This document shows, piece after piece, positions 38,107-39,066 of a DNA stretch of 64,000 nucleotides. The first letter of the stretch is position 1. Each line of letters begins with the position of its first letter. This DNA is from Nitrospina sp. LS_NOB (GTDB lineage Bacteria; Nitrospinota; Nitrospinia; Nitrospinales; VA-1). The translations under genes and the position numbers were made by a program. The stretch is taken from assembly GCA_001542995.1 (NCBI GenBank), contig LFLA01000012.1:62001-126000 (forward strand). Direction: 5' to 3'. Under the pieces are notes generated by a model that saw nothing but the letters and a program-made list of their open reading frames with translations, made no database searches and was not told where the DNA came from.

Positions 38107-39066
38107 TCATCTTAAGTTTATGGACACGCCGACGCCACCAGCAAAGTCATTGGTGTTCATTCCTGTAGCAATTTTCGCTGCGATTTGCCAACGATTATGC
38201 AACCTCGCAGCCAAACCTAGCGAAACAGCGTGTTTATCATTAAACGTCCCTACCGCCATCGTTAGATTGAGTCGTTGACCTTCATCTAATCCAGGCATGA
38301 CGCCCATTGCAACTGCCATAGCCACGCCGCTCGATAATTTATTTTCAAGGCGCCCAATCTGTTGATGAATGCTACGCAATGCGGAACTGTTGACTTGCTT
38401 AAATACCTTCGTTTCAATTTCCCTAATTGTTTCCTCTTCAATTGTTCCTGACACGCCCTGCGCCCCTTGAATTCCCCTCTGACCATCAGCTCCCACAGCT
38501 CCATCAACTCCATTAGCCCCCCTCCCACCATCAGTTCCATTTACTCCCTGAAGCCCTCTTTGACCAGCAACTCCCACAACTCCATCAACTCCATTAGCCC
38601 CCCTCCCACCATCAGTTCCATTTACTCCCTGAAGCCCTCTTTGACCATCAGCTCCCTGAAAGCCTCTCTCCCCTCTCCTTCCTTGCGCCCCTGGGGGGGG
38701 GGGGGGGGGGGGGGGGGGGGGGGGGGGGGGGGTGGACTCAATAATTCTGATACGCTCGACCAAGCTATCACTCCCTCCTTTTATTACCACACCTGCTATT
38801 TCAACTCGACTATGCGTGTGGCTTTGCCCAATTACAATTTCACCCTCGCCAGCCGTCGTTCCTTGACCAATCGCAATAGCCCAATCGCCTGATGCAGTGG
38901 CGAACGTGCCAATCGCAATGGTATCTCTGGATGATGCAGTGGCGGACGGCCCAATTGCAATCGAGGGATTCCCGCTCGCAGCCGCGCTCCGGCCAAGTTG
39001 AATGTCATCTACTGATTGCGCGCTTGCGCTCGCTACGAAAAGCATTGCGACCGCCAACCATGCCAT
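38107..39066 (-). CDS. YadA-like trimeric autotransporter with collagen-like stalk
   Basis: A compact surface adhesin, 319 residues from the ATG at 39066. It has a signal peptide (MAWLAVAMLFVASASAQS) and YadA head repeats (SIAIGPSATASS, TIAIGTFATASG, AIAIGQGTTAGE). Thirteen prolines follow, encoded by the G40 run. The collagen-like G-X-Y stretch of about 90 residues has two 27-residue repeats. A short coiled coil (IREIETKVFKQVNSS ... IGRLENKLSS) leads to a C-terminal YadA anchor of about 70 residues ending NDFAGGVGVSINLR. The open frame also extends upstream to 39108 as an N-terminal fusion to the first glutaredoxin codons (MMKLYNLDGCGYC). The anchor trimerises to form its own outer-membrane pore. 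The sequence is inserted between direct repeats of the glutaredoxin 5' end. Confidence 0.9.
   Translation of the reverse strand: MAWLAVAMLFVASASAQSVDDIQLGRSAAASGNPSIAIGPSATASSRDTIAIGTFATASGDWAIAIGQGTTAGEGEIVIGQSHTHSRVEIAGVVIKGGSDSLVERIRIIESTPPPPPPPPPPPPPGAQGRRGERGFQGADGQRGLQGVNGTDGGRGANGVDGVVGVAGQRGLQGVNGTDGGRGANGVDGAVGADGQRGIQGAQGVSGTIEEETIREIETKVFKQVNSSALRSIHQQIGRLENKLSSGVAMAVAMGVMPGLDEGQRLNLTMAVGTFNDKHAVSLGLAARLHNRWQIAAKIATGMNTNDFAGGVGVSINLR
38485..38646 (-). repeat. Two 81-base tandem repeats in the collagen-like region
   Basis: Two adjacent 81-base units encode 27-residue collagen-like blocks beginning GQRGLQGVNGTDGGRG and differing at only a few positions near the end (GVVGVA versus GAVGAD). 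Flanking sequence has further partial units (GQRGIQ). Copy number could change by slippage or recombination, altering stalk length. Confidence 0.85.
38693..38732 (-). repeat. Homopolymer of 40 G (C on coding strand)
   Basis: An uninterrupted run of 40 G on the plus strand inside the adhesin ORF. As read, it keeps the frame open and encodes most of 13 prolines. A change of one or two bases would remove the collagen-like stalk and the membrane anchor. The exact length is also the part of the window most prone to sequencing error. Confidence 0.9.

Follow-up and report, generated by a model that had tools for sequence, protein, structure and literature searches.

The adhesin gene and its G tract

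The window analysed here, a stretch of 64 kb of the LS_NOB genome, carries on its reverse strand a gene for a YadA-type trimeric autotransporter adhesin, which adjoins a glutaredoxin gene and contains a homopolymeric tract of 40 nt. The features of the locus, in coordinates of the window, are the following:

37848-38105, minus strand: glutaredoxin gene, pushed downstream by an insertion (PF00462; locus comparison)
38042-38085, minus strand: downstream copy of a 44-bp direct repeat, within the glutaredoxin gene
38107-39108, minus strand: YadA-type trimeric autotransporter adhesin gene, 333 aa, intact (ORF, Pfam)
38119-38289, minus strand: YadA_anchor beta-barrel segment, residues 274-330 (PF03895)
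38446-38691, minus strand: collagen-like Gly-X-Y stalk, residues about 140-221 (PF01391; PDB collagen chains)
38480-38656, no strand assigned: 81-bp tandem repeat inside the stalk, 2.2 copies, 94% matches (repeat search)
38693-38732, plus strand: G40 homopolymer, C40 on the coding strand, covering part of Thr126 and Pro127-Pro139
38824-39003, minus strand: YadA-type head repeats and neck, approximate limits (PF05658; PDB 1p9h, 3wp8)
39063-39106, minus strand: upstream copy of the 44-bp repeat, derived from the 5' end of glutaredoxin (ATG and about 14 codons) and serving now as the adhesin start

Pfam places in the adhesin a YadA_head domain (PF05658; 3.5e-8, 34 bits against a cut-off of 25, best stretch at residues 44-70), a Collagen domain (PF01391; 1e-11, residues 139-189) and a YadA_anchor domain (PF03895; 1.5e-7, 31.8 bits against a cut-off of 22.7, residues 274-330). 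The protein therefore has both the C-terminal membrane anchor and the passenger head repeats of the YadA class, and its head matches the YadA-class heads 1p9h (at residues 27-95) and 3wp8 (at residues 34-87) of the PDB. The coiled coil named in the original prediction would correspond approximately to residues 222-273. A hydrophobic stretch, AWLAVAMLFVASASA, recognised by eye, follows the 15 glutaredoxin-derived residues in the translation. From the sequence we infer that the adhesin functions at the cell surface.

The tract consists of exactly 40 G with no interruption, as had been stated when it was first noticed, and a run scan of the window revealed no other G/C run of at least 7 nt. On the coding strand it occupies nucleotides 377-416 of the CDS, comprising the last two bases of Thr126 followed by Pro127 to Pro139. 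These 13 prolines, written with 12 CCC codons and one CCA, had been described as a hinge between the head and the collagen-like stalk, and both the codon read-out and the order of the Pfam domains agree with that description. It had also been proposed that changes in length not divisible by three would cost the protein its stalk and anchor, and this held in silico over lengths of 36-45 nt: the frame is kept at 37, 40 and 43 nt, with products of 332-334 aa, and a stop is reached 14 or 23 residues past the tract at 36, 38, 39, 41, 42, 44 and 45 nt. The allele as assembled, with 40 nt, is in frame, that is, ON, and encodes 333 aa.

An insertion at the glutaredoxin locus

The 466-aa protein encoded next to the adhesin (39132-40532) is 82-92% identical to its counterparts in the closest Nitrospina MAGs, its own record excluded, which identifies the host as a Nitrospina-like marine nitrite oxidiser of the Nitrospinaceae. 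The framing in terms of pathogens, in which the poly-G switch had originally been presented, is inapplicable to a host in this family.

For the locus comparison we used 50 loci, made up of 46 of the 80 matches to the 466-aa protein and four from the adhesin search; the 34 more distant of the 80, mostly Verrucomicrobia, were left out, and some genomes were possibly counted twice. Glutaredoxin was found in 49 of these loci, separated by -18 to 179 bp from the homologue of the preceding gene, and the adhesin body was absent from all 49, four relatives being shown at the DNA level. In LS_NOB, a 44-bp direct repeat (39063-39106 and 38042-38085; 95% identical) flanks the adhesin, its upstream copy being collinear with the relatives, and residues 1-15 of the adhesin are those of the glutaredoxin encoded immediately downstream. 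Because glutaredoxin directly follows the 466-aa gene in relatives, none of which has the adhesin body, the site is best read as an insertion. The adhesin evidently is not native to this place: a small insertion split the glutaredoxin locus, duplicating 44 bp and placing the adhesin behind the glutaredoxin leader and start, the first 15 codons of which it reuses.

Immediately next to the adhesin, between 37848 and 39138, neither an integrase nor a transposase is evident. A 16-bp tandem duplication lies just 5' of the adhesin start, at 39107-39138, and its two copies were not seen in the four relatives.

Matches to the adhesin occurred in 19 of 59 other genomes and were limited to the collagen part or to the glutaredoxin-derived first residues, one of them, in genome G019, extending from the collagen part back into the neck. 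No match reached the anchor in any of the 59 genomes, a scan of genome contigs with the adhesin found no relative, and neither search gave a homologue with a different tract length. Among 46 genomes of the family, a YadA anchor was present in two, LS_NOB and its congener G005, with two genes in each. The adhesin appears to be a newly acquired trimeric autotransporter, gained by horizontal transfer. An origin from a phage tail fibre was considered and set aside, as the four matches in a scan of viral contigs covered only residues 117-232, the polyproline-collagen part.

Long G/C runs in the LS_NOB genome

The LS_NOB genome (2.65 Mb) contains 69 G/C runs of at least 8 nt, 25 of at least 10, 12 of at least 12 and 9 of at least 15, with lengths spread over 8-16 nt and then over 22-40 nt, the latter range comprising seven runs. 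Under a first-order model based on the composition of the window, 10.3 runs of at least 10 nt would be expected, 0.8 of at least 12, 0.02 of at least 15 and 3e-5 of at least 20 nt, the class to which the seven longest belong. For A/T runs of at least 10 nt, the same model gives about 80, against 5 observed. With 12 runs of at least 12 nt in the genome, of which G40 is the longest, the tract is not a lone oddity of one gene.

Runs of at least 15 nt were found in 12 of 100 genomes searched, LS_NOB included; LS_NOB has nine of them, and the other 11 genomes have 20 in total, a count that for relatives represents a lower bound, many assemblies being fragmented. Any such run was present in 3 of 15 other members of the genus. 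The 12 long runs of LS_NOB are located as follows:

G40: mid-gene in the adhesin, a surface gene
G12: in the second YadA gene, close to its signal-peptide region, at a contig start, the start codon not being visible
G26: upstream of a secreted protein (by eye, from the N-terminus) without a match in 24 relatives, its end lying 16 nt from the GTG
G23: upstream of a secreted protein (by eye), its end lying 23 nt from the ATG, with an Autotransporter domain in the downstream ORF
G25: at the gene start of a short ORF without assigned function
G15: at the gene start of a hydrolase, in the ribosome-binding site
G13: at the gene start of a glutaredoxin-like gene
C30: in a broken flippase gene, at a deletion junction
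G24: beside an RND-like remnant (named from reading the sequence) at a contig end
G22: intergenic, in hairpin-like sequence
C13: 1 nt after the stop codon of a response regulator
C16: at a contig end

For at least 5 of the 12, the location is a broken gene or its flank, intergenic sequence, a site just past a stop codon, or the bare end of a contig. The signature of a frame switch was seen at four of the long runs as compared with 134 of 279 short G/C runs (5-7 nt) at the same loci, and we rejected it as proof of phase variation, since it failed its own control. In the glutaredoxin-like gene (L065:2995-3265), G13 puts the sole nearby ATG out of frame. The gene for the secreted autotransporter whose leader contains G23 (L075:1-1442) is seemingly split over several frames in the assembly.

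Two of the runs suggest how they arose. The G15 at the hydrolase start corresponds to G5-G6 at the same site in two of three aligned relatives and is interrupted in the third. The C30 joins residue 450 of the 528 of a flippase to the C-terminus of a gene that we call NeuB-like from reading its sequence, and in relatives the flippase is intact, with an open frame of 508-531 aa. Taken together, these cases suggest that runs grow from short C/G stretches, in dead genes as well. The flippase remnant (L054:1837-3165, contig C14) is without both of its ends. As general marks of large rearrangements the long runs fail, given that this holds for the flippase run, whereas relatives show collinear sequence at the hydrolase and ketoacyl-synthase sites. 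Nor does loss of MutL, a mismatch-repair protein, explain them, since the gene is present with an open frame of 610 aa.

A switch or a by-product of run expansion

The occurrence of runs at a deletion junction, in a ribosome-binding site and past a stop codon indicates that a bias towards expansion of G runs probably made the tract. The reading that we favour, with some reserve, is that this bias produced it and that, placed where it is, it acts as an ON/OFF switch of the adhesin. As a homopolymer, the tract should be hypermutable, and slipped-strand replication would be expected to alter its length frequently. The full adhesin would come only from lengths that keep the frame, the other products ending just past the hinge; since these lose the stalk and the anchor, the gene should act as a translational ON/OFF switch, assembled in the ON state. 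Steps of three would lengthen or shorten the rigid polyproline hinge. As in known contingency loci, the repeat is pure and far longer than chance would allow, and a change by one unit shifts the reading frame, yet this last property is common among short runs too; as to conservation of the tract in homologous genes, a usual though dispensable trait of such loci, no homologue with it was found.

Support for phase variation comes from the tracts of the YadA genes, from the runs in the leaders of secreted-protein genes and from loci of the congener. Both YadA-anchor genes of LS_NOB carry a long G/C run (G40 and G12), which by our arithmetic has a probability of about 2e-5 by chance. One of the genes of G005, for type ISP restriction-modification (L095:1-2920), is broken by an out-of-frame C17; its frame stops 12 residues past the run and the remainder continues in another frame. 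The same genome has G19, in frame, within an ORF named glycosyltransferase-like from reading its sequence. Genes for restriction-modification and for glycosyltransferases are classic kinds of phase-variable genes, and the C17 locus is likely to be a phase-variable system in this 1.7-Mb congener. The phase-variation switch that had been proposed as likely for the adhesin thus gains from its frame logic, from the paired YadA tracts and from G005, and loses from the several long tracts at sites implausible as a switch, because of which tract length alone is no evidence of a selected switch. Given the general growth of G/C runs in the genome, non-functional DNA included, selection for switching alone probably did not bring the tract to 40; the adhesin may rather have captured or inherited one expanded run at the joint between head and stalk.

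It is conceivable, though we think it doubtful, that the tract is a neutral by-product, tolerated and unselected in a gene that is perhaps decaying, of a lineage-specific bias that expands G/C runs wherever they lie. Such a bias would account for the runs at the flippase-NeuB junction, 1 nt past the response-regulator stop, in the intergenic hairpin-like sequence and in the hydrolase ribosome-binding site, and it agrees with the low share of ORF-switching among the long runs (4 of 12, against 134 of 279), but it leaves to chance the presence of tracts in both YadA-anchor genes. It also sits poorly with the tracts in the leaders of two further secreted-protein genes, with an adhesin frame that is intact at 40 nt and with the phase-variable-type loci of the congener. 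Tentatively, we may also suggest a G:C-specific runaway expansion in the Nitrospina lineage, similar to a dynamic mutation and with A/T runs suppressed, in which short G runs at ribosome-binding sites, deletion junctions and hinge codons would have lengthened to 15-40 nt, and new surface genes would use the runs as switches.

The tract is unlikely to be explained as a structural polyproline hinge on which slippage of the ribosome or polymerase at C40 yields mixed products with no change in the DNA. Its 13 prolines do stand exactly between the neck and the collagen stalk, and it is established that long homopolymers cause slippage and that polyproline causes stalling, but under selection for the polyproline itself one would expect mixed proline codons, and 12 of the 13 are CCC; moreover, other runs in the genome are non-coding.

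We consider it improbable as well that the tract results from sequencing or assembly, its true length being much shorter or its two halves wrongly joined. Contig ends shared over exactly 77 bp, and one contig end with a motif that we take to be adapter-like, point to a short-read assembly with k=77, and the first bases of two contigs are C runs of 16 and 11 nt, equivalent to outward G runs, which poly-G read artefacts can cause. Poly-G of that kind sits at read ends, however, and cannot provide both flanks or join two halves of one gene, and we conclude from this that the tract is genuine. The sequences on either side of it encode successive portions of a single protein in the same frame, similar runs occur genome-wide with the spread of lengths given above, and one of them can be traced to a short ancestral run. 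The basecalling artefact that the original prediction had allowed for is thus unlikely. The exact figure of 40 is not secure, owing to the short-read assembly and to graph breaks near some tracts. Of the 48 contig ends covered (out of 52, the far ends of C16, C21, C25 and C26 being left out), 4 lie no more than 100 bp from a G/C run of at least 10 nt, as compared with about 0.05 expected by our arithmetic, which fits length variation among reads, though read failure too. Many contig ends of LS_NOB (L221-L260) lie in dispersed CATTCTGAA-type repeats common to contigs.

Comparison with known systems

UspA1 and Mid/Hag are trimeric adhesins of the YadA class and, like the adhesin described here, are tied to poly-G tracts. 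According to the consulted portion of a study of Moraxella catarrhalis, uspA1 has an upstream G(n) tract, with low mRNA levels at 8-10 G and high levels at 11-12 G, and the poly-G tract of mid/hag shows natural variation (PMC7302503). The uspA1 tract, as given there, thus has 8-12 G and lies upstream of the gene, whereas the present one has 40 and lies mid-gene, between head and stalk. Furthermore, Moraxella is a pathogen, whereas here we deal with a marine nitrifier, in which switching is a prediction.

The genome-wide occurrence of G/C tracts recalls the phasome of Campylobacter, in which many tracts lie in surface and modification genes and, in the section of the report consulted, tract lengths peak at 9 and 10 nt, those of 13-15 nt being rare (PMC6321876). 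LS_NOB differs in having seven runs of 22-40 nt, several of them outside plausible switch positions. Poly-G and poly-C tracts were generally under-represented in a survey of 99 genomes, as far as its excerpt indicates (PMC2831843).

A paper search returned no literature on phase variation in Nitrospinae. Most known cases of poly-G phase variation come from host-adapted bacteria with small genomes; the tract length, the host and the setting are new to us, and the kind of system is already known. If the switch is real, poly-G phase variation would extend to a nitrite oxidiser of the sea, at two to four times the usual tract length, and the switching of surface and restriction-modification genes would matter in the open-water nitrogen cycle, with its phage, grazers and particles. 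If runaway expansion took place, a free-living nitrifier of the sea would have gained phase variation from a mutational bias. Runs at non-functional sites would allow the birth and growth of switches to be studied apart from selection.

Within the genus, the two YadA-type proteins of G005 (L219 and L220) share the YadA anchor, and L219 also has, by eye, head-like and neck-like sequence; they differ from the adhesin in that the L219 ORF shows no collagen stalk by eye and neither gene contains a G/C run of at least 7 nt. VtaA of Haemophilus parasuis, a trimeric autotransporter with YadA-like head repeats and central collagen-like repeats, is similar by its description, and the available part of that account contains neither the term homopolymer nor phase var (PMC6755704). 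VtaA2 is much larger, with 1225 aa in the same part of the account, against 333 aa here.
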